Assembly (NCBI GenBank): GCA_022825235.1
Contig: JAJDYI010000015.1
Coordinates: 1 to 64,000 of the forward strand
Direction of reading: 5' to 3'
Source: Alphaproteobacteria bacterium
GTDB taxonomy: Bacteria; Pseudomonadota; Alphaproteobacteria; TMED109
DNA: 64,000 bases
Under the pieces are notes generated by a model, which was not told the DNA's origin, ran no database searches, and saw only the letters and a list, made by a program, of their open reading frames with translations. The translations under genes were made by a program, and so were the position numbers. This document shows positions 6,316 through 34,557 of this stretch, in pieces (the stretch's first letter is position 1; each line of letters begins with the position of its first letter).

Positions 6316-6391
6316 GGCGCGGTCTGCTACCGTGAGTCTTGGCCGGCCACCGACCGGAGAAGGGCGTAACCCCGAAAAGGAGCGCGCCGCC

Positions 6392-7738
6392 ATGACCGGA
6401 AAGGACTCCCTCAGCAGACGCCGCTTCCTCGGCACCGGGACGGCGGCCGCGGCCGCGCTGGCCGCCCCCTACGTCAAGCGGGCGCACTCCGCGGGACGGC
6501 TTGAACTCGGTGTGCAGGATCACTGGGTGCCGGGCGTCAACCCGGTGGTGGAGCAGATCTGCACCGACTGGGGCCGGCAGAACAACGTCGACGTCAAGGT
6601 CGACTTCATCACGAGCGTCGGCAACAAGCTGGCGCTGACGGCGCAGGCCGAGGCCCGCGCCGGCACCGGCCACGACATCTTCCAGATGGGGCTGTGGGGT
6701 CCCAGCATCCAGCGGACCAAGCTCGAGCCGCTGGACGACGTCATCGCGGACATCGAGGCGGACGTCGGGATGATGGATCCGGCGGCGAAGTACTGCTTCT
6801 ACATCGACGGCGCCTGGCGGTCGTCTCCGGTCGCCGTCATGGGCCAGACTCACGCGTTCAACAGCCGGATCGATCATTTCCGGGACCTCGCCGAAATCGA
6901 TCTGCCCGACCTCTTTCCGGCCGGCCCGCGCGACCCCGCGAAGGTCGCGACCTGGACCTACGACTCCTTTCTGGTCGCCGCCCAGAAGCTGCATGCGGCC
7001 GGGTACGGGTTCGGCGCGGCACTGTCGCCCACGGCCGACGGCACCTTCTGGCTGGCGCCCCTGTTTGCGGCGTTCGGCGCGGTCCTGGTCAACGCCGACC
7101 GCGAGATCACGGTCGACAGCGATGAAACCCGGGCGGTGCTCGAATACCTGAAAGAACTCAGCCAGTTCATGTCGGACACGGTCTATGCGTGGGATGACGC
7201 GAGCAACAACCGCTGGATGCTGTCCGGCCGGGGGTCCGCGGTGGTCAACCCGCCCAGCCCGTGGGCCGTGGCGAAGCGCGACGCTCCCGAGCTCGCCCCG
7301 CTGATCTGGCACCATGATCTGCCCGCAGGGCCGCGCGGGCGCTTCCGGCACCTCATCCCGAACGGTTGGGGCATCTGGCACTTCTCGGCGAACAAGGACG
7401 CGGCGAAGGACCTGCTGCGGCACATGGCGACGCGCGGGGTGGCAGAGCAGCTGGTCACCGCGAGCAAGGGCTACGAAGCGATCATCTTCGAATCGTTTCG
7501 CGATTTTGGCGTCGTGGAGGAAGCGGGGCCGCCCGCCGGCACGCTCTACAACTACACGCCGCGCGGGGATGAACAGCTCATCCTGTGCGGCACGCCGGCG
7601 CCCAACGATGTCGCCGCGCAAATCTTCACCCAAGGCGTCTTCGGCAATCTGGTGGCGCGGGTCACCGCTCACGACGAATCCCTCGACGACGCCATTGCCT
7701 GGGCCGAGAACGAGCTCGAGGGATTCCTGCGCGGGTAA
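6392..7738 (+). CDS. Tat-exported ABC transporter solute-binding protein (family 1)
   Basis: A 448-residue extracellular solute-binding protein of family 1, the carbohydrate/oligosaccharide type. It begins with a twin-arginine signal (SRRRFLG at residues 8-14, then an Ala-rich hydrophobic stretch ending near AHSA). The mature part contains the usual W-rich elements and ends without a membrane segment. GAAAAGGAGCG precedes the chosen ATG at 6392. No permease or ATPase of the matching type (MalF/MalG, MsiK) is encoded nearby; the ABC genes at 9-12 kb are branched-chain-amino-acid type, which normally use a different binding-protein fold. It is therefore an orphan binding protein in this window. 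Confidence 0.82.
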   Translation: MTGKDSLSRRRFLGTGTAAAAALAAPYVKRAHSAGRLELGVQDHWVPGVNPVVEQICTDWGRQNNVDVKVDFITSVGNKLALTAQAEARAGTGHDIFQMGLWGPSIQRTKLEPLDDVIADIEADVGMMDPAAKYCFYIDGAWRSSPVAVMGQTHAFNSRIDHFRDLAEIDLPDLFPAGPRDPAKVATWTYDSFLVAAQKLHAAGYGFGAALSPTADGTFWLAPLFAAFGAVLVNADREITVDSDETRAVLEYLKELSQFMSDTVYAWDDASNNRWMLSGRGSAVVNPPSPWAVAKRDAPELAPLIWHHDLPAGPRGRFRHLIPNGWGIWHFSANKDAAKDLLRHMATRGVAEQLVTASKGYEAIIFESFRDFGVVEEAGPPAGTLYNYTPRGDEQLILCGTPAPNDVAAQIFTQGVFGNLVARVTAHDESLDDAIAWAENELEGFLRG

Positions 7739-7798
7739 CCGGCAGCAATCTCCCGGCGCGCGACCGTCGCGCCGGGACTGACCAACGGGGAGCGAATC

Positions 7799-8089
7799 AT
7801 GGTCGCTTATGTGATGGGGACGGTGACGATCACCGACGGATCGTGGGTGGAGGACTACATCCCGAAAGTGCAGGCGCAGGTCGAAGCGCACGGTGGGCGC
7901 TACATCGCGCGCAACACCGAGATCGAGAAACTCGAAGGCCCGGCGGAGGTGCCGACCGTGGCGGTCATCATCGAGTTCCCGTCGCTCGCGCGCGCCCGGG
8001 AGTGGTATCACTCGGCGGAATACCAGCCGCAGCTCCGGGCCCGGCAGGCCGGCTCGATCGGCAACCTGATCCTGCTGGAAGGCCTGTAG
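7799..8089 (+). CDS. DUF1330 family protein
   Basis: A 96-residue protein matching the DUF1330 ferredoxin-like alpha/beta fold: MxxYVMGTVTITD at the start, the EGPAEVPTVAVIIEFPS core and the AREWYHSAEYQ segment typical of the family. Members are small cytoplasmic proteins with no agreed function, often encoded beside dehydrogenases and catabolic enzymes. GGGGAGCG lies just before the ATG. It follows the binding protein by about 60 bases and probably belongs to the same transcript. Confidence 0.85.
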   Translation: MVAYVMGTVTITDGSWVEDYIPKVQAQVEAHGGRYIARNTEIEKLEGPAEVPTVAVIIEFPSLARAREWYHSAEYQPQLRARQAGSIGNLILLEGL

Positions 8090-8104
8090 AAGCCGGCCGA
8101 CCGG

Positions 8105-8962
8105 TCAGCGAGCCTCCTCGCCGAAGAACGCGCGCAACTCTGCAACGACCCAATCGGGCCGCTCCTCCGGAATCCAGTGACCGCAGTCCTCCACCACGCC
8201 GCCACGGACGTCGTCCGCGACGCGCCGCCACGATTCGATCGCTGCCTCCCCGCGGCCGCGCCCCATGGCGCCCCCGTAGCACAGGACCGGCATGCCCAGC
8301 TTGCCCTGGGACAGGAATGACCGGTTGTCGGTGACGTCCTGCGGCGTAGCGCGATAGAGGTTGAAGCCGGCGCGCATCGCCCCGGGCTGCCGGTAGGTGC
8401 GCAGGTACTCGCGTTGCGCCGCTTCCGGCACGGCGTCGGGCCGGGCACCCCAGTGTCGGTAGAAGAAGCCCAGGTAGATGTCCTCGCGGCCCTGGGTCAG
8501 CGCTTCGGGAAAGTCCGGTTCCCAATGCAGGCCGTGATGCCATCGGTTCTGGAACATCACCGAGGTGCCGTCTCCCGGCACGGGAACGTCGAACACCGCG
8601 AGACGCTTGACGGCCTCCCGGTGCTGCGCCGCCAGCGCGAAGGCGACCGGCCCGCCCCAGTCGTGCCCCACGACGAAAAACTCGCGCTCGCCGAGCACGT
8701 CATGGACCAGGCGCCAGATATCCTCCGCCAGGGTCTTCTTGTCGTAGCCGCCGGCGGGGCGCGATGAATCCCCCAGTCCCCGCAGATCCGGGGCGATGAC
8801 CCGGTAGTCAGCGGCCAGTTCCGCCATCACGGCGCGCCACATGTACCAGGTCTGCGGCCAGCCGTGGATGAAGACCACCGCGGACCCATGGCCCGCCTGC
8901 ACGTAATGGAGCCGGACGTCGCCCACGTCGGCGTAATGGTGGCGGAGTGATTCCGGCGTCAC
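8105..8962 (-). CDS. Alpha/beta hydrolase, epoxide hydrolase / haloalkane dehalogenase type
   Basis: A 285-residue alpha/beta hydrolase. HGWPQ (residues 33-37) forms the oxyanion region, DLRGLGDS lies at 59-66, and the nucleophile elbow is GHDWGG with Asp101 as nucleophile. The catalytic His is in CGHW (His262). An Asp nucleophile in a GHDWG setting is the mark of epoxide hydrolases and haloalkane dehalogenases, not of serine esterases. It is cytoplasmic, without a signal peptide. It is convergent with DUF1330 and lies just downstream of the liv-type transporter on the same strand. The substrate is unknown. Confidence 0.85.
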   Translation of the reverse strand: MTPESLRHHYADVGDVRLHYVQAGHGSAVVFIHGWPQTWYMWRAVMAELAADYRVIAPDLRGLGDSSRPAGGYDKKTLAEDIWRLVHDVLGEREFFVVGHDWGGPVAFALAAQHREAVKRLAVFDVPVPGDGTSVMFQNRWHHGLHWEPDFPEALTQGREDIYLGFFYRHWGARPDAVPEAAQREYLRTYRQPGAMRAGFNLYRATPQDVTDNRSFLSQGKLGMPVLCYGGAMGRGRGEAAIESWRRVADDVRGGVVEDCGHWIPEERPDWVVAELRAFFGEEAR

Positions 8963-8990
8963 ACGTGGCCGGCCCCGCAGGCGCCGCCAC

Positions 8991-9638
8991 TCAATCGTCG
9001 CGCCAAGGTTCGACCGCGCCGCGCTCGATCACGTACGTGTGCTCGAAGAGGCTGCCCGCCCGCTCCATCTCCGATTCGGAGATCAGGACGGTCGTGCCCT
9101 CCCGCTGGAGATTCGCCAGGACTTCGGCCAGCCGGAGGGCCAGCGCCGGGGCCACCCCCTCGAAGGGCTCGTCGAGCAGCAGCATCCGTCCCCCGGCGAC
9201 CAGGGCGCGGGCCAACGCCACCAGTTTCTGCTGGCCCCCCGACAGCTGCTCCACCCGGCGCGCGCGCATGTCGGCGACCTCGGCAATGAACGTGTACGCC
9301 CGCGCGCACCGGGCGGCGCCGTCGGCATGCCCCGATCCCCAGGCCGGCAGCAGGAGGTTTTCCTCCACGGTGAGGCCGGGAATCAGGCGGCGGTCCTCGG
9401 GCATGTACCCGATCCCCTGGCGGGTGCGCCGGTGCGCGGGGGCCGCCGTGATGTCCTCGCCGTCGAGCAGGATTTGGCCGGCGCGGGCGCGGATCAGCCC
9501 CATGACGGCACGCATCAGGGTCGTCTTGCCGGCGCCGTTGCGGCCGACCAGCCCGGTGAAGCCCTGCACCGTCAGATCAACCCCGTGCAGGATCGTGCTG
9601 CCACCGAAATTGACCGTGAGATTCCGGATCTCAAGCAT
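8991..9638 (-). CDS. livF: Branched-chain amino acid-type ABC transporter ATPase (LivF)
   Basis: A 215-residue ABC ATPase, a little shorter than usual LivF (about 235). Walker A is GRNGAGKT (32-39), the signature is LSGGQQ (132-137), and Walker B ends LLLDEP with Asp156/Glu157. It closes the livH-livM-livG-livF run, and its first codons overlap the last codons of livG by 8 bases. The family imports branched-chain or other amino acids, amides or short-chain carboxylates across the inner membrane. The true substrate here is unknown because no binding protein is encoded alongside. Confidence 0.88.
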   Translation of the reverse strand: MLEIRNLTVNFGGSTILHGVDLTVQGFTGLVGRNGAGKTTLMRAVMGLIRARAGQILLDGEDITAAPAHRRTRQGIGYMPEDRRLIPGLTVEENLLLPAWGSGHADGAARCARAYTFIAEVADMRARRVEQLSGGQQKLVALARALVAGGRMLLLDEPFEGVAPALALRLAEVLANLQREGTTVLISESEMERAGSLFEHTYVIERGAVEPWRDD

Positions 9639-10401
9639 CGGGGGCGCGTCCCGGCCGGCGGCCGACCACGTGCTCGATCACCGCCGGGTCCTCGAGGACC
9701 ACATCCGGCGTACCGTCCGCCAGCACGCGTCCCTCGCGGAACGCGATCACCCGGTCGGCGTAGCGACCCACCACTTCCATGTCGTGTTCGACAAACAGCA
9801 CCGTCGCCCCCGACTTCCGGAGGGCGTCGATGACGTTGCCCATCACGTCGAACTTTTCCTTCGTGCTGATGCCGCTCGTCGGTTCGTCCAGCAGGATCAT
9901 CGCCGGCTGCCCGACCATCGCCATCGCGATGTCGAGAAGCTTGCGCACCCCCTGCGGCAGCCGGTCGACCCGCGTCGTCGCCGACTCCGCGATCCGGTAG
10001 CGTTCCATGATCGCCGTCGCTTCGTTCTCGACTTCCGGCCGCACGAGGGGCTGCCACCAGGGCGGGCGGCGGTGGCCGAACACGCCGACCGCGAGCAGCA
10101 GGTTCTCGTACACGGTGAGGCCGGGAAACAGCTGCGGAATCTGGAACGAGCGGTGGATCCCGGCCTCGGTGGCCTGCCCGACGGAGCACCCGGTGATGTC
10201 CTTGCCCCGGAACAGGATCTGTCCCAGGTCCGGGGTCAGGTAGCCGGTGACCATGTTGCAGAACGTGGTCTTCCCGGCCCCGTTGGCACCGATCACGCCC
10301 ACGATCTCGCCCGCCGTCACCGATACGTTGACGTCTTCCGCAGCGACCACGGCGCCGAACCGCTTCCCGAGGCCGCGGGTCTCGAGCAGGACTTCAGGCA
10401 T
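9631..10401 (-). CDS. livG: Branched-chain amino acid-type ABC transporter ATPase (LivG)
   Basis: A 256-residue ABC ATPase. Walker A is GANGAGKT (38-45) and Walker B ends ILLDEP. The signature loop reads LPQGVRK instead of the common LSYGQQ/LPYGQQ, a departure seen in divergent LivG branches. The start at 10401 overlaps the end of livM by 8 bases; a longer open frame upstream is the shadow of livM. It pairs with LivF to drive the LivH-LivM permease. Confidence 0.87.
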   Translation of the reverse strand: MPEVLLETRGLGKRFGAVVAAEDVNVSVTAGEIVGVIGANGAGKTTFCNMVTGYLTPDLGQILFRGKDITGCSVGQATEAGIHRSFQIPQLFPGLTVYENLLLAVGVFGHRRPPWWQPLVRPEVENEATAIMERYRIAESATTRVDRLPQGVRKLLDIAMAMVGQPAMILLDEPTSGISTKEKFDVMGNVIDALRKSGATVLFVEHDMEVVGRYADRVIAFREGRVLADGTPDVVLEDPAVIEHVVGRRPGRAPDA

Positions 10402-28705: not shown

Positions 28706-29065
28706 TCGCGATCCTCCTCGCGGCGGCAGTGTACCCGGCCAACCACGGTCCGCAACGACGGCACCACGCCGTTGGACACGAACGGGTACCACTGAAGTAA
28801 CGGTTCCCGTGTCCATTCCCACCTCCCTGGTGCGGACCCCGCAAGTGCACCCAAGGAATCCCCAGCATGGGCGATCCGGACATCGAACGAACTGGAACAT
28901 TGATCGCCATTTTGCGTGGCAAGTCCGGCCACAATCGTTCAGGGAACTGGCGTGCCGCTCCGCCCAAAGCCCAACATGCACGCACCCATCCTGGAGGCTG
29001 GACACTTGCGGTAGCCTGCGGAACATGGTTCGTTGCGCTGGCAACAGGATCACGTCCCGAGCCTG

Positions 29066-29229
29066 AAGCTGGACCGGCGTTGCGCTCGCCATCGGCCTCC
29101 TGGCGGCACAGGTTTCCGCCGGCCACCACGCGGTGGAGTTCGGTCACGACGAGCATTCGCACGACGAGCAAGGGCCTTACGAGTTCCCGCTCGTTTCTAC
29201 AGGGTTCTTTCTTCTCCCTCTTGCTCTGT
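29066..29229 (+). pseudogene. Remnant of an exported His-rich protein
   Basis: Reading from 29066, the frame encodes a typical signal-peptide core (WTGVALAIGLLAAQVSAG), then HHAVEFGHDEHSHDEQ, and stops at a TAG (29227-29229). There is no start codon: TGA precedes the frame. The signal peptide plus His/Asp/Glu cluster suits a metal-handling protein and fits the zinc locus that follows. The parent family cannot be named, and a chance frame is possible. Confidence 0.4.
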
Positions 29230-29465
29230 AGGATCGCGCACCCAGCGTTCTTGAGCCGCCAGCCAAACCCGATTCGCTTTCGGTCGCGACCCGCGCGCCG
29301 AGAGCGAACCGAATTCGTGCTCCTCCAAAGCCTGCCTAATCCGATATCTGCGAGCTCGGCCACCCCGCTCGCACCGACCACAAGAATTACGCGTGCGCTC
29401 CGGTGCGGGTGATTTTCCGCGCGGCTCGCACAGGTCACCTCCGGGCGTTCGCCGTAAGGAGCCGA

Positions 29466-29492
29466 TTGCCCCGGAAAATGAGTTGTTATACT
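29466..29492 (+). promoter_or_regulatory. Candidate promoter of the zinc-type locus
   Basis: TTGCCC (29466-29471), a 15-base spacer and TATACT (29487-29492) lie about 110 bases before the outer-membrane gene. The -10 sits inside the AT-rich TTGTTATAC, which shares one half (TGTTATA) with known Zur operators, but the second half is not symmetrical. This is a weak call. Confidence 0.25.
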
Positions 29493-29602
29493 GTTGCGTT
29501 TGGTCCGGGACCCTGCCCGGAGCCCGTCCGCCGGCACATTCGTCGTGCCGGATGGGGCAGCCAATTGCCAGCTCTCGGTCGGGACAGGAAAAGGATTTCT
29601 AC

Positions 29603-31189
29603 ATGCGCACCATCTTCCAGGCTCTGTGGGCGGCGGGACTCTCGTCCATCGTGGCGTGCGTCGCGCTCCAGGCGCACGCGCAGGATTCGGCCCCGACGGC
29701 AGAGGAGCTCGCCGCCGAGATCCAGGCCATCAAGCAGGAATACGAGGCCCGCATCCAGGCCCTGGAAGGGCAGCTCGAGGCTATGACGACTGCTCCGGCC
29801 CGGCCCGCAGCCCAGCCTGCGGCCTCCTCAGTGGGGCAGAAGATGCCCACCACGGACAATGTCTTCAATCCCGCAATCGGCTTGATCCTGGATGCGCGGT
29901 TCTCAAATCTCTCCTCCGAGCACGACTTCGAGCCTGCCGGTTTCCAGTTGGGCCACGGGTCCGAACGTCCCCCCGAAGGTCTCGCACTGGGCCACCCCGA
30001 ATTGACGCTGAGCGGGAATGTGGACGACAAGTTCTTCGGAGCCGCCACGATTGCGATTGACGCCCACCCGGGCGAGGCGGTCGCACTGGAGGTGGAAGAG
30101 CTCTACATCCAGACGCTTCCGGGCGCGGGCCTGCCGGACGGCGCACGGATCCGGGGCGGGCGGGCACTGTGGACCTTCGGGTACCTCAACGAGGTCCATC
30201 TGCACGCCGACGATTTCTCCGACCGTCCGCTCCCCTACCGCGCGTTCCTTCACGAGGCGTTCAACGACGACGGCCTTGAGCTCTCCTACGTCCTGCCGAC
30301 GGACATCTACGCAGAGGTCGGCGGCGGGCTGTTCCGCGGCGCAGACTTCCCCTTCGCAAACTCTGAGAACGGCACCGGTGCCTGGTCAGCCTACGCGCGG
30401 ATCGGCGGTGACGTGGGCAACAACGCCGCCTGGCGGATTGGCGCCTACATGTTGGCCGGCGAAGCCCACAACCGCAGCGGCGGAGGCCACGATCACGGGC
30501 ATGGGGAGGCCGCGCACGAAGACGAACACGACCACGAAGAAGGAGATGACCACGCCGAAGATGAACACCACGACGACGATGGAGATCATCACGACGAAGC
30601 AGAGCACCACGAGGACGAAGACGAACACCACGACGATGAAGCAGAACACCACGAGGACGAAGACGAACACCACCACGACGAAGCGATGGAAGACATCGAG
30701 GCATTCACCGTCGGCATGTTCTCAGGCGACGCGGCCATGTATGCCATTGACGGCCGGTTCACGTGGGCGCCCACGGGCAATCCCCGCGAACAGGAGCTGA
30801 TCCTCCAGGCAGAGGTGTTCTGGCGGGTAGAGGAAGGCGAGTATCATCTCGAGCATCTCGACGAGGAGCCTGACGCCGACGGCAACTACCCAGTACACGA
30901 GGTCACATTCAACGAAGCGACATCGATGGGGTACTACGTGCAGGGTGTCTACAAGCTCAACCGCAACATCAGGGTTGGTGCCCGCTACGCGCGGCTGGAT
31001 CCGCCGGACATTCTTGAACTCGATCACGAACCGGTTGCCTACGCGGTCATGGCGGACTGGACCAACAGCGAGTTCAGCCGCATCCGGCTGCAGTACAACC
31101 GCGAGGAAATCGAGGAAGGCGAGCCGGATGACCAGATCCTGTTCCAGTACATCATGAGCCTCGGTGCACACGCGGCCCATACCTTCTGA
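29603..31189 (+). CDS. Outer-membrane beta-barrel protein with His/Asp/Glu-rich metal-binding tract
   Basis: A 528-residue exported protein: signal peptide ending LQAHAQ (about residue 24), a short coiled coil (SAPTAEELAAEIQAIKQEYE…), then alternating amphipathic strands typical of a porin-like barrel ending in Phe (HAAHTF). The extracellular or periplasmic loop at about residues 295-361 is almost entirely His, Asp and Glu and includes a DNA repeat of 42-bp period (30593-30673). It precedes a ZnuA-like gene by 11 bases. The likely role is binding or passage of zinc across the outer membrane. AGGAAAAGGA lies before the chosen ATG; the longer open frame is not supported. Confidence 0.75.
   Translation: MRTIFQALWAAGLSSIVACVALQAHAQDSAPTAEELAAEIQAIKQEYEARIQALEGQLEAMTTAPARPAAQPAASSVGQKMPTTDNVFNPAIGLILDARFSNLSSEHDFEPAGFQLGHGSERPPEGLALGHPELTLSGNVDDKFFGAATIAIDAHPGEAVALEVEELYIQTLPGAGLPDGARIRGGRALWTFGYLNEVHLHADDFSDRPLPYRAFLHEAFNDDGLELSYVLPTDIYAEVGGGLFRGADFPFANSENGTGAWSAYARIGGDVGNNAAWRIGAYMLAGEAHNRSGGGHDHGHGEAAHEDEHDHEEGDDHAEDEHHDDDGDHHDEAEHHEDEDEHHDDEAEHHEDEDEHHHDEAMEDIEAFTVGMFSGDAAMYAIDGRFTWAPTGNPREQELILQAEVFWRVEEGEYHLEHLDEEPDADGNYPVHEVTFNEATSMGYYVQGVYKLNRNIRVGARYARLDPPDILELDHEPVAYAVMADWTNSEFSRIRLQYNREEIEEGEPDDQILFQYIMSLGAHAAHTF
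30593..30673 (+). repeat. 42-bp-period tandem repeat inside the His/Glu-rich tract
   Basis: Two 39-base copies, 42 bases apart (starting 30593 and 30635), differ at two positions and encode the unit DEAEHHEDEDEHH. A less perfect copy is visible just upstream. Length variation here would alter metal-binding capacity. Confidence 0.8.
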
Positions 31190-31200
31190 CGGAGGGACCC

Positions 31201-32157
31201 ATGCATCGACTCCCGACGCGCACCCTGATTGCGGGCTGCCTGGCAGCAGCAACGCTGTCCGCGCTCCCGGCCTCGGCGGAGGTGCGGGTATTCGCCTGCG
31301 AACCCGAATGGGCTTCCCTCGCGGAGGAAGTGGGCGGCAGCGACGTCACGGTGTATTCCGCAACACATGGCGGGCAGGATCCCCATCACATCCGCGCCCG
31401 GCCGAGCCTGATTGCCCAGATCCGCCGGGCGGACCTCCTGTTCTGCTCCGGGGCCGAGCTCGAGATCGGCTGGCTCCCGGTCCTGATGCAGCGGGGAGCA
31501 CGACTCGGCATCCAGCCGGGGCAGCCGGGCCACCTGATGGCGGCCGAACACGTGGATGTCCTGGACCCTCCCGCGGTCATCGACCGCAGCTTGGGCGACG
31601 TCCACGCAAGCGGCAATCCGCACGTCCACGTTGGCCCCCGCAACATCAGGCTGCTTGCAACCGAGCTCGCCGCACGCCTGAGCGCGATCGATCCGGACCG
31701 TGCCGATGCCTACCAGTCCCGGCTGGCGGACTTCCACGCACGCTGGGACACCGCGACGGCGGAATGGGACGCCCGTGGGGAAGCGCTCCGTGGCACCCCG
31801 CTGATCGTTCAGCACGCCTACTGGGCCTATCTCTTCGACTGGTTGGGCCTGGAAAGGGTCGCCTCCATGGAGCGCATACCCGGCATTCCGCCGTCCGCGC
31901 CGCACCTTCAGGAAGTGCTCGCGCATTCCCGTTCGACGAACGTCAAGGCCATCATTCGCGCCAACTTCGAGCCCACCGATGCCGCGGAATGGCTTTCGGA
32001 GAGAAGCGGCCTCCCGATCGTGGAACTGCCCTCCACGGTGGGTTCCTTCCCTGAGGTCACGGACCTCTTCTCCTTCTTCTCCGAGATCCTGACCCGCCTG
32101 GAGGCCATCCCCGACCAGTCCGCGTCCGTTCCGGGGATTGGACGACCAACCGGATAG
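31201..32157 (+). CDS. ZnuA-like metal ABC transporter binding protein (copy 1)
   Basis: A 318-residue cluster A-I (TroA/ZnuA) periplasmic binding protein with a signal peptide ending ALPASA (about residue 26). Probable metal ligands are His62 (GGQDPHH), His141 (GNPHVHV) and His205 (QHAYWAY), at the usual spacing. It lacks the His-rich loop of classical ZnuA; that feature is instead on the outer-membrane protein encoded just upstream. It delivers Zn2+ (or Mn2+) to the ZnuB-like permease. It is clearly paralogous to the gene at 32853 over its whole length. Confidence 0.85.
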   Translation: MHRLPTRTLIAGCLAAATLSALPASAEVRVFACEPEWASLAEEVGGSDVTVYSATHGGQDPHHIRARPSLIAQIRRADLLFCSGAELEIGWLPVLMQRGARLGIQPGQPGHLMAAEHVDVLDPPAVIDRSLGDVHASGNPHVHVGPRNIRLLATELAARLSAIDPDRADAYQSRLADFHARWDTATAEWDARGEALRGTPLIVQHAYWAYLFDWLGLERVASMERIPGIPPSAPHLQEVLAHSRSTNVKAIIRANFEPTDAAEWLSERSGLPIVELPSTVGSFPEVTDLFSFFSEILTRLEAIPDQSASVPGIGRPTG

Positions 32158-32180
32158 CGATACCAGACTCGAGTTCGCGT

Positions 32181-32839
32181 CGGCGCTTCCGGGAACGGCG
32201 TTGGCGCATCCTCGGCTACGCCCGCCTTGAGGGTGAGTGCGGCCGCAACCCGTCGGTTCGGATCCGCGCGTACGCGTTGAGCGGATCACTGCAATCGACA
32301 GGAGTGGCCACGACCGCGTGATGACCATGCCAATCGTGACGAGCATGAGCATCTTGATCCGCACGCGGGAGGCCCGTTCACCGGAGAGACGTCCCTCTAC
32401 GGTTTTGACGTCCACTGCGCGTTTGCGCCCACCGGCAATCCCCGTGAGCAGGAAGTCACCCTGCAGGGCGGATGTTTCCGACGAATCGGAGACGGCTGCC
32501 ACGCCGTCGAAGGAGACGAAACGGAAATCAACGAAGTCGACGGCACCTGTGCCGGCTGATACGTTGCAACAGACCTGCACGCTCGACCGCGCATGGCGAA
32601 TCGGTGCCCGCTGCGCACGCCTCAGACCGGTCAGGGTGGCCATCGACGTCATGAACGACGAGTACAGGGTCGAACACTGTCCCTCCACCATCGCGCTGCA
32701 GGGCAACTGGACGAACAGCCGCATCGGACGGATGCGGTCGCAGCCCAACCGGGAATCCCTGACGCGCGTCGAGACTGCCAAACGAGTGGGCCTGCAGTTC
32801 ATCATGGGTTCGGGTGCGGACGCAGCGCATGCCTACTGA
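32181..32839 (+). pseudogene. Decayed second copy of the His-rich outer-membrane protein gene
   Basis: Translated in changing frames, this stretch follows the C-terminal half of the protein encoded at 29603-31189. RRWRILGYARLEGE matches AAWRIGAYMLAGE; DRSGHDR matches NRSGGGHDH; a short His/Glu-rich piece follows; then CAFAPTGNPREQEVTLQ matches FTWAPTGNPREQELILQ. The end …RIGARCARL…NWTNSRIGR…QFIMGSGADAAHAY matches RVGARYARL…DWTNSEFSR…FQYIMSLGAHAAHTF. At least two frameshifts and an in-frame TGA near 32560 break it, and the N-terminal half is gone. It lies exactly where a second outer-membrane gene would sit before the second znuA. Confidence 0.82.
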
Positions 32840-32852
32840 CCCGGGCCGAGCG

Positions 32853-33782
32853 ATGTTGCCGAAACGACTTGCGCGAGCGATCTGGCTCGCCCCGCTGGCC
32901 GTGCCGGGAATGGTCGAACCCTCCCCGGCCTCTGCCCAAGTACAGATTTTCGCCTGCGAGCCAGAGTGGGCGGCGGTGGCAATGGAGGTCGGGGGCGAAG
33001 CGGTCAGCGTCTACGCGGCAACGCATGGCCGGCAAGACCCGCACTACATCCGGTTGCGCCCCAGTCTCATCGACGAGATGCGCCGGGCGGATGTGCTGTT
33101 CTGCTCCGGGGCAGGCCTGGAAGGGGCATGGCTCCCGGTTCTCCTGCAGCGTGGAGCGCGTGTGTCACTCCAGCATGGTCAGCCAGGTCACCTGCTTGCG
33201 AGCGAGCACGTACGATTGCTGAATCCTCCAGGCCGCGTCGACCGCAGCCTTGGGCACGTGCACGCGGAGGGCAATCCGCACGTGCAGCTCCTGCCGGAGA
33301 ACATTGACCTCATGGCCACGGAGTTGGCCCGCCGGCTCGCGGAGATCGATCCGGAAAACACTGAGACGTATCGCCGACAGCTGTCGGCGTTCCAGGAGCG
33401 TTGGCGGGGTGCGACGGCAGGATGGATGGAACGGTCGTCCCGCCTGGCGGGCATGTCCGTTGTCGCGTACCACGAGGCGTGGGCCTATCTGTACGAGTGG
33501 ACCGGCATCAAGCAGGCCGCAACAATCGAACGCCTCCCTGGCGTCCCGCCGACCGTCAGCCATCTGCAAGAGGTCCTGGAACTCGCTCTGGGAGCCGGAG
33601 CCCGTGCCATCCTTCGTGCTCCGTACGAGCCGACCAAGGGGATGGAGTGGCTTTCCGACAGGGCTGGAATCCCGATTGTCGAGCTGCCCTTTACCGTCGG
33701 GGGCGCGGAGGGTATCGACGATCTGTTTGATCTCTTTGAGGTAACCATCACGCGGCTGGAAGAAGTACATGATCAATATTGA
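32853..33782 (+). CDS. ZnuA-like metal ABC transporter binding protein (copy 2)
   Basis: A 309-residue paralogue of the protein at 31201. It has a signal peptide (RLARAIWLAPLAVPG, ending near SPASA) and the same three His positions in QDPHY, GNPHVQ and YHEAWAY. The second His of GNPHVHV is Gln here, the most visible difference in the metal site. The ATG at 32853 starts the signal peptide; 32829 is an in-frame alternative. The last 14 bases overlap the permease gene, so it is coupled to transport. Two binding proteins for one permease could widen affinity range or metal choice. Confidence 0.84.
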   Translation: MLPKRLARAIWLAPLAVPGMVEPSPASAQVQIFACEPEWAAVAMEVGGEAVSVYAATHGRQDPHYIRLRPSLIDEMRRADVLFCSGAGLEGAWLPVLLQRGARVSLQHGQPGHLLASEHVRLLNPPGRVDRSLGHVHAEGNPHVQLLPENIDLMATELARRLAEIDPENTETYRRQLSAFQERWRGATAGWMERSSRLAGMSVVAYHEAWAYLYEWTGIKQAATIERLPGVPPTVSHLQEVLELALGAGARAILRAPYEPTKGMEWLSDRAGIPIVELPFTVGGAEGIDDLFDLFEVTITRLEEVHDQY

Positions 33783-34557
33783 AATCATTGAGATCGTCAT
33801 GCCGGCGTTCGTGACCGGCCTCCTGTGTACGGCGCTGCACGTGCCGCTTGGCATCGAGGTCCTGAAGCGGGGAATCGTCTTTATCGACCTTGCCACGGCG
33901 CAGGTGGCCGGAGTCGCAATCGTCGCGCTGAACGTCTGGGTGATGGAACCGTCGTGGGCCGGAGTCCAGGTCGCGGCATTCGGTGCGGCGGCGGCGTTTG
34001 CGTTTCTGTTCCGGTGGGTGGAAAAGACCTTGCCCGACGAGCAGGAGGCGGTCATCGGCAGCTGCTTCATTGTTGCGGCGTCGGTGACACTGCTGCTGCT
34101 CGCCAACAACCCGCATGGAGGGGAAAAGCTCGAGCACGTGCTCTCGGGCCAGATCCTGTTCACGTCATGGTCGGACCTGGCTGCATTCCTGCCGGTGTAT
34201 CTGCTGGTCGCGGGACTGTGGGCCGGGTACCCGAATCTCCGGTCCGGACAGGGATTCTTTCTGCTGTTTGCGCTTGCGATCACTGCGTCCGTGCAGTTGT
34301 TGGGCGTGTACGTCGTCTTCGCGAGCCTGATCCTGCCGGCGCTGACCGGGCGACGGGCGGATGGCTCGTACAACCTGTGGCGTGCCCTGTTGAGCGGCGG
34401 CCTGGCGGTCGTCGTAGGGATCGTGGCATCGACGGCCGCCGATCTTCCGGCCGGGCCGTTCCTCGTGCTCTGTTTTGCCGTCTCCGCCATCGTGGTCCGC
34501 GTGATTGCCCACTGGATGTCAAGCCCGGCTTCCCGGTCCGGTCTCCGCCAGACCTGA
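33769..34557 (+). CDS. ZnuB-like metal ABC transporter permease
   Basis: A 262-residue inner-membrane permease of the ABC-3 family (ZnuB, TroC, MntB) with seven to eight hydrophobic segments, VLKRGIVFIDLATAQVAGVAI near the N-terminus and the SGQILF/LGVYVVFASLILPAL motifs of zinc permeases. It overlaps the end of the second binding-protein gene. No ZnuC-type ATPase gene is found before or after it, so the energising subunit must come from elsewhere. Confidence 0.85.
   Translation: MINIEIIEIVMPAFVTGLLCTALHVPLGIEVLKRGIVFIDLATAQVAGVAIVALNVWVMEPSWAGVQVAAFGAAAAFAFLFRWVEKTLPDEQEAVIGSCFIVAASVTLLLLANNPHGGEKLEHVLSGQILFTSWSDLAAFLPVYLLVAGLWAGYPNLRSGQGFFLLFALAITASVQLLGVYVVFASLILPALTGRRADGSYNLWRALLSGGLAVVVGIVASTAADLPAGPFLVLCFAVSAIVVRVIAHWMSSPASRSGLRQT

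Follow-up and report, generated by a model that had tools for sequence, protein, structure and literature searches.

A conserved barrel, binding-protein and permease cassette for metal uptake, most likely of zinc, whose ABC-3-derived permease may work without an ATPase

The stretch of DNA analysed here, referred to as the window, comprises positions 1 to 64,000 of contig JAJDYI010000015.1 from an alphaproteobacterium assigned to TMED109 (GCA_022825235.1). It contains a compact group of genes for an outer-membrane beta-barrel protein, two substrate-binding proteins (SBPs) resembling ZnuA and a permease of the ABC-3 family, together with the remains of a second barrel gene. An initial annotation, made from the letters alone, had described this group as a two-membrane metal uptake system distinct from the classical znuABC. 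The gene order and coordinates that it gave were borne out, and the two-membrane interpretation is supported, with zinc as the most likely metal. The features of the locus are the following.

29480..29500, + strand: weak Zur-box-like sequence GAGTTGTTATACTGTTGCG, 4/13 mismatches, upstream of the barrel gene
29603..31189, + strand: outer-membrane beta-barrel gene (528 aa), with signal peptide, N-terminal coiled coil and His/Asp/Glu-rich loop
31201..32157, + strand: ZnuA-like SBP1 gene (318 aa), PF01297 with E 1.5e-39; the three metal-ligand His are present
32158..32839, + strand: pseudogene derived from the resident barrel gene, of which the C-terminal part remains; orthologue of the intact barrel gene in genomes G003 and G005
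32853..33782, + strand: ZnuA-like SBP2 gene, PF01297 with E 1.8e-35
33769..34557, + strand: orphan ABC-3 permease gene (262 aa), PF00950 with E 1e-14; lacks the coupling-helix segment, being 19 residues short

The barrel protein ends in ...GAHAAHTF and carries its loop at about residues 299-373, a segment in which the 21 His confirm the His-rich character first assigned to it. The two binding proteins are paralogous, as had been proposed, and share 57% identity over 284 aa. Translation of SBP2 likely starts at ATG 32853, the longest open reading frame beginning at GTG 32814, and its gene overlaps that of the permease by 14 bp. The permease exceeds the Pfam cut-off for PF00950, but compared with NCBIfam it reaches 42 of 280 bits for AztB and 27 of 284 bits for ZnuB, both far under the cut-off. 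The barrel remnant is recognisable at about 32287-32836. Its similarity to the intact barrel gene is clear (tblastn, E 2e-22), but two main blocks in different frames were recovered and not the four stretches initially reported; with the G003 barrel gene it shares 42-51% identity. In the genus, six genomes carry it, and frame changes and stops disrupt it in 6/6. The idea that it encodes a conserved short protein was rejected, since the homology switches frames and stops occur in six species. The ratio of nonsynonymous to synonymous substitution rates (dN/dS) is 0.17-0.23 for SBP1, 0.21-0.23 for both SBP2 and the permease, and 0.34 for the barrel. The permease, both SBPs and the barrel evolve under constraint, with purifying selection acting on the permease and the SBPs.

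The combination of barrel, SBP and permease genes forms a conserved cassette that was examined at 54 loci, a few of them partial, from Alpha- and Gammaproteobacteria and Campylobacterota. These loci were picked by similarity of the barrel or the permease, regardless of whether an ATPase was present. A barrel profile (A1) found relatives in 39/385 alphaproteobacterial genomes, and 19 of the 20 alphaproteobacterial loci that were fetched have the order barrel, SBP, permease; the exception is a barrel gene standing alone (L083). In other classes of the phylum, where 20 loci were collected with a permease profile (A2), the same order was found in 18/19 cassette loci, the remaining one (L161) being without a barrel. 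A weak match to this profile, L164, proved to be an ordinary znuCB pair and not a cassette, and it was reused as a canonical control. Vibrio campbellii also carries the cassette, and in Sulfurovum mangrovi (Campylobacterota) its genes are annotated 'hypothetical protein, zinc ABC transporter substrate-binding protein, metal ABC transporter permease'. Several variants were seen. The lone barrel gene of L083 (genome G313, 7475-9157) belongs to the same family and has 27 His in its loop, with neither SBP nor permease adjacent. L056 (genome G041, 7739-10224), where barrel gene and ATPase are both absent, has an SBP and an orphan permease of 417 aa, which is extended at its C terminus and has a loop of intermediate length (64 residues). 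The loci L158-L162, from family f188 and its relatives, make up a second, more divergent cassette subtype, and G420 holds two cassette copies, one of them the barrel-less L161.

A profile was built for ABC ATPases and every locus was scanned with it in six frames. No directly adjacent ATPase was found in any of the cassettes (0/54). Among canonical ABC-3 permeases, taken mostly from the same genomes, an ATPase lies within about 250 bp in 19/19. The loci are mutually related, so only counts are given and no p-value is attached. Six of the 54 cassettes have an ATPase within 3 kb. Five of these ATPases are accompanied by their own partner, namely an FtsX-type permease (L048, L050 and L053), a znuCBA set (L046) or the permease of an azt-like ATPase-permease pair (L147); the sixth is L158. 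In the window itself, the statement that the cluster lacks an ATPase holds, the closest gene for an ABC ATPase on the contig being 19 kb away from the permease. Because the contig runs to 113 kb, this absence is not a contig-edge effect. Contig ends or assembly as a general cause were likewise rejected, most cassettes being flanked by several kb on both sides.

Judged by its sequence, the cassette permease is a separate subfamily of ABC-3. Profile-profile alignment relates the orphan permeases to ABC-3 with 99.9% probability (E 9e-35). An alignment was made of 53 orphan with 22 canonical permeases, the latter with the solved structures of ZnuB (9oko) and PsaC (7kyo) among them. Two conserved anchors are separated by 75 residues in 22/22 canonical proteins and by 54-64 residues in 53/53 orphans (56 in 38/53). 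The orphans are therefore 11-21 residues short, usually 19, and the AxxxG motif typical of type II coupling helices, present in 22/22 canonical permeases, falls in the missing stretch. The gap corresponds to residues about 147-164 of E. coli ZnuB, 'NLLSMTISPDLAFVDGV', by profile-profile alignment. In a weak alignment of ZnuB with BtuC, this segment falls on the 'GEISARQLGLP' loop between helices 6 and 7 of BtuC. That loop is a known contact with the ATPase in BtuCD. In S. aureus IsdF, mutating both the A and the G of AxxxG abolished binding of the FhuC ATPase (PMC10147376). The metal path has changed as well. In MntBC-A, the metal-path residues Asp47, His51 and Asp94 are all essential (PMC8487065), and in 53/53 orphans the His of this triad is replaced by Gln and the second Asp by Glu. 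The first Asp sits one residue earlier and is invariant, and the channel helices are retained together with the invariant Asp and Glu.

In nine genomes the cassette permease is the sole ABC-3 permease. Five of these genomes are at least 96% complete (G010, 96%; G085, G142 and G162, 99% each; G206, 97%), while the others are less so (G007 and G014, 88%; G025, 73%; G050, 71%). A ZnuC-type ATPase was not found in any of the nine, the best scores being at most 109 bits for ZnuC and at most 136 bits for AztA. For comparison, most genomes with znuB score 202-303 bits for ZnuC, and those with an azt-like set score 217-218 bits for AztA. The best ATPase matches in the nine genomes belong to the PQQ_ABC, GldA/DrrA, LptB and corrinoid/heme families. 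ZIP is absent from 8/9 of them, with G142 as the sole exception, so that 4/5 of the more complete genomes are also without it. If the assemblies are trustworthy, the lack of ZnuB and ZnuC makes both a heterodimer with ZnuB and the borrowing of ZnuC impossible in these organisms.

The barrel proteins share a signal peptide, an N-terminal coiled coil, an invariant HxHADDF motif and a C-terminal GAHxAHxF/Y. The window barrel has no Pfam or NCBIfam match and no PDB relative, three other barrels have sub-threshold Pfam matches only, and no TonB-receptor or plug family of Pfam was matched by the barrels tested. The family is a candidate for a dedicated outer-membrane metal channel. Its His/acid-rich loop occurs at one position. 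Barrels of this genus (10-21 His) and of G313 (27 His) have a long version, those of family f80 and three gammaproteobacteria a short one, and most other barrels none. The initial annotation had regarded it as the loop normally carried by ZnuA, relocated to the outer-membrane partner. A complete znuABC is, however, present on another contig of the same genome (C6), and its ZnuA has a His-rich loop of its own. Since the barrel loop is present only in some lineages, it is an optional, putatively metal-gathering element and not a loop transferred from ZnuA.

Several observations point to zinc as the substrate. By alignment, the three His that bind metal in E. coli ZnuA are all conserved in the cassette SBPs, whereas the acidic fourth ligand is not. 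A Fur-family gene nearest to Zur immediately precedes the barrel gene in L055 and lies in the vicinity of the barrel gene in L048, L050 and L053; its score for Zur, 77-80 bits, is under the curated cut-off. Zinc transport genes are also neighbours: G005 has znuCBA 3' of the cassette, and in G434 the cassette is adjoined by an azt-like pair. Additionally, Zur-box-like palindromes upstream of the barrel gene have a shuffle p of <=0.01 in 8/51 regions, where about 0.5 would be expected (mononucleotide shuffle), and the sites in L085, L087, L156, L163 and L044 have 0-2 mismatches. Three sister species of the window's organism (L042, L043 and L044) have a better palindrome than the window at equal distance, with 2-4 mismatches. 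In small AT-rich genomes of the same family, L048, L050 and L053 show a Fur/Zur-family gene, a LolD-type ATPase, an FtsX permease, the cassette and DUF3299 consecutively, an arrangement that is possibly a combined zinc island.

The surroundings of the window's cassette were also inspected. Upstream of the barrel gene is a divergent CDGSH gene, separated from it by a long gap (29050-29480) in which only the weak Zur-like site was noticed. The genes 3' of the cassette are presumably imuA, imuB and dnaE2. An orphan ATPase elsewhere in the genome had been anticipated. Two zinc-type ATPases occur there, a ZnuC within the complete znuABC on C6 and an AztA-like protein within an aztABC-like set on contig C87. 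The aztABC-like set on C87 stands beside a zrgA/LolD/FtsX set, and this region (L012, 5003-13225) comprises a COG0523 GTPase gene, the aztC/B/A-like genes and the divergent zrgA/LolD/FtsX genes, with Zur-box-like palindromes at 6361 and 9729 (2 mismatches each). The combination of ZrgA, LolD-type ATPase and FtsX permease that characterizes Zrg/Zrm systems is therefore found on C87 and not in the window's cassette.

The extra barrel-SBP pair of the window had been attributed to duplication in place of a two-gene module. The ancestral unit, however, consists of three genes. G003 and G005 retain a simple barrel-SBP-permease unit, and five species have an additional barrel-SBP pair upstream, the resident barrel gene being a pseudogene. 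Duplication of the resident unit in place, without a contribution from another lineage, is a less probable but reasonable history. SBP1 and SBP2 are neighbours of considerable identity, both barrel types of the genus have the His-rich loop, and G005 has, in tandem, a decayed copy that includes a permease fragment. This second unit (L045, 3809-6728), which lies about 20 kb away from the intact one, comprises a frameshifted permease gene, the remains of a barrel gene and another permease fragment, and it shows that duplication and loss of entire units have taken place in this lineage. In contrast, the barrel tree groups the upstream type with the cassette of family f80 (G389 and G312) at 99/97 and leaves the resident type outside, and a tree of concatenated barrel and SBP sequences places the upstream pair with f80 at 98/99. 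The SBP tree alone gives no resolution. The branching of the two binding proteins with different outgroups, which the initial annotation had named as grounds for refuting duplication, is thus half borne out. As f80 barrels also have a shorter His/acid-rich loop, the loop does not decide the origin. The affinity with f80 makes a simple local duplication doubtful. A barrel-SBP pair acquired from an f80-like donor, or an ancient duplication followed by losses, would fit better than a recent duplication in place.

Based on these results, we lean towards the view that the three genes form a conserved metal-uptake cassette, most likely for zinc, in which an ABC-3-derived permease lacking the coupling helix works without an ATPase. 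The barrel protein would admit the metal across the outer membrane, and in some lineages its His/acid-rich loop might concentrate it. The ZnuA-like SBP would then capture metal in the periplasm and deliver it to the permease, which would pass the released ion down its steep electrochemical gradient, set by the membrane potential and cytosolic zinc buffering, without ATP. The membrane potential and the very low concentration of free cytosolic zinc favour the entry of divalent cations, and import without ATP is feasible for this reason. There is also a precedent for membrane parts of the ABC superfamily that transport without a motor, in the lone S-components BioY and BtuM (PMC6072759). We infer zinc as the substrate, the direction of transport, ATP independence and delivery from SBP to permease alike. 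Somewhat more tentatively, the cassette could represent a widespread SBP-dependent and ATP-independent branch of ABC-3 with a dedicated barrel, serving some genomes as the sole recognisable high-affinity zinc importer.

A number of points weigh against this proposal. The most troubling is the loss of the essential His, as a result of which the permease could have ceased to be a metal carrier. An ATPase unlike ZnuC could dock in another way, and the missing helix was positioned by alignment and not from a model, with AlphaFold models from five-sequence alignments reaching a pLDDT of 40 for the permease and 33 for the barrel. Moreover, the nine genomes that have only the cassette are mostly draft assemblies, and the window's own candidate Zur box is weak.

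The replacement of His by Gln in 53/53 permeases would be readily understood if the protein were not a transporter but an anchor, sensor or docking platform that hands the SBP or its metal to znuBC, aztBC or zrg. The cassette and znuABC are often found together in one genome, and four small genomes of the same family have the cassette next to the LolD-type ATPase, FtsX permease and DUF3299. Nevertheless, this role seems unlikely. G085, G162 and G206 have no other ABC-3, ZnuC-type or ZIP recipient (zrg-type systems were not searched for there), and the permease retains its channel helices and invariant acidic residues under a dN/dS of 0.21-0.23. Still less probable is the possibility that a stand-alone or shared ATPase energises the permease, for instance ZnuC from C6 or the AztA-like protein from C87. 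One ATPase can serve several permeases, as FhuC does in S. aureus (PMC10147376), and the window's genome has two zinc-type ATPases of its own. However, the docking segment is missing in 53/53 permeases, the nine cassette-only genomes yielded no ZnuC-type ATPase, and 5/6 of the ATPases within 3 kb have their own permease of the FtsX or canonical ABC-3 type. The initial annotation had held that the permease must borrow an ATPase; because the docking segment is lost, none of the 54 loci has an adjacent ATPase and nine genomes are without a ZnuC-type ATPase, that statement is probably wrong. Decay of an ABC importer after loss of its ATPase, which the pseudogene inside the locus might suggest, is highly improbable, given that the permease and both SBPs are maintained by purifying selection and that the ATPase-free arrangement recurs in many families and several classes.

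If ATP-independent import by the cassette is correct, an SBP-fed ABC importer would be able to dispense with its motor, providing a simple natural test of the contribution of ATP to the import of metals. The zinc importer so far missing from bacteria apparently without ZnuABC and ZIP would also be accounted for, and the annotation 'metal ABC transporter permease' would be misleading for the whole subfamily. A literature search, with most subscription journals outside its scope, found no published ATPase-less zinc permease. The parts of the cassette are relatives of known families, and a prior description of it may exist.

In comparison with known systems, the cassette is nearest to ZnuABC, AztABC and PsaBC-MntBC, with which it shares a cluster A-I SBP with three His and a homologous permease. 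Unlike these systems, it has an outer-membrane partner that is obligatory in nearly all loci, and three of the ZnuABC-type features tested, a co-encoded ATPase, the coupling helix and the Asp-His-Asp triad, are lacking, the triad having its His replaced by Gln and its second Asp by Glu. The proposed logic of SBP-fed transport without ATP resembles that of the TRAP transporters. The membrane subunits of TRAP transporters are, however, unrelated to the cassette permease, which has no DctQ or DctM homology. ZrgABCDE and PA4063-4066, composed of ZrgA and a LolD/FtsX-type ABC system, are likewise Zur-linked zinc genes and stand beside the cassette in some relatives, but the Zrg permease is of the unrelated FtsX/MacB type and has its own ATPase. 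As with ZnuD and the Caulobacter receptors ZnuK and ZnuL, which are TonB-dependent zinc receptors (PMC4176598), the barrel would mediate an outer-membrane step of zinc uptake; it differs from them in being porin-sized (about 370-550 aa) and in having no TonB-receptor or plug match. Caulobacter znuGHI was considered as a match and rejected, since it belongs to the ABC-2 type and encodes an ATPase of its own. Finally, the solitary BioY and BtuM proteins share with the cassette permease, as proposed here, the ability of an ABC-superfamily membrane component to transport without an ATPase module (PMC6072759), although they have no SBP, possess an unrelated fold and act on vitamins.

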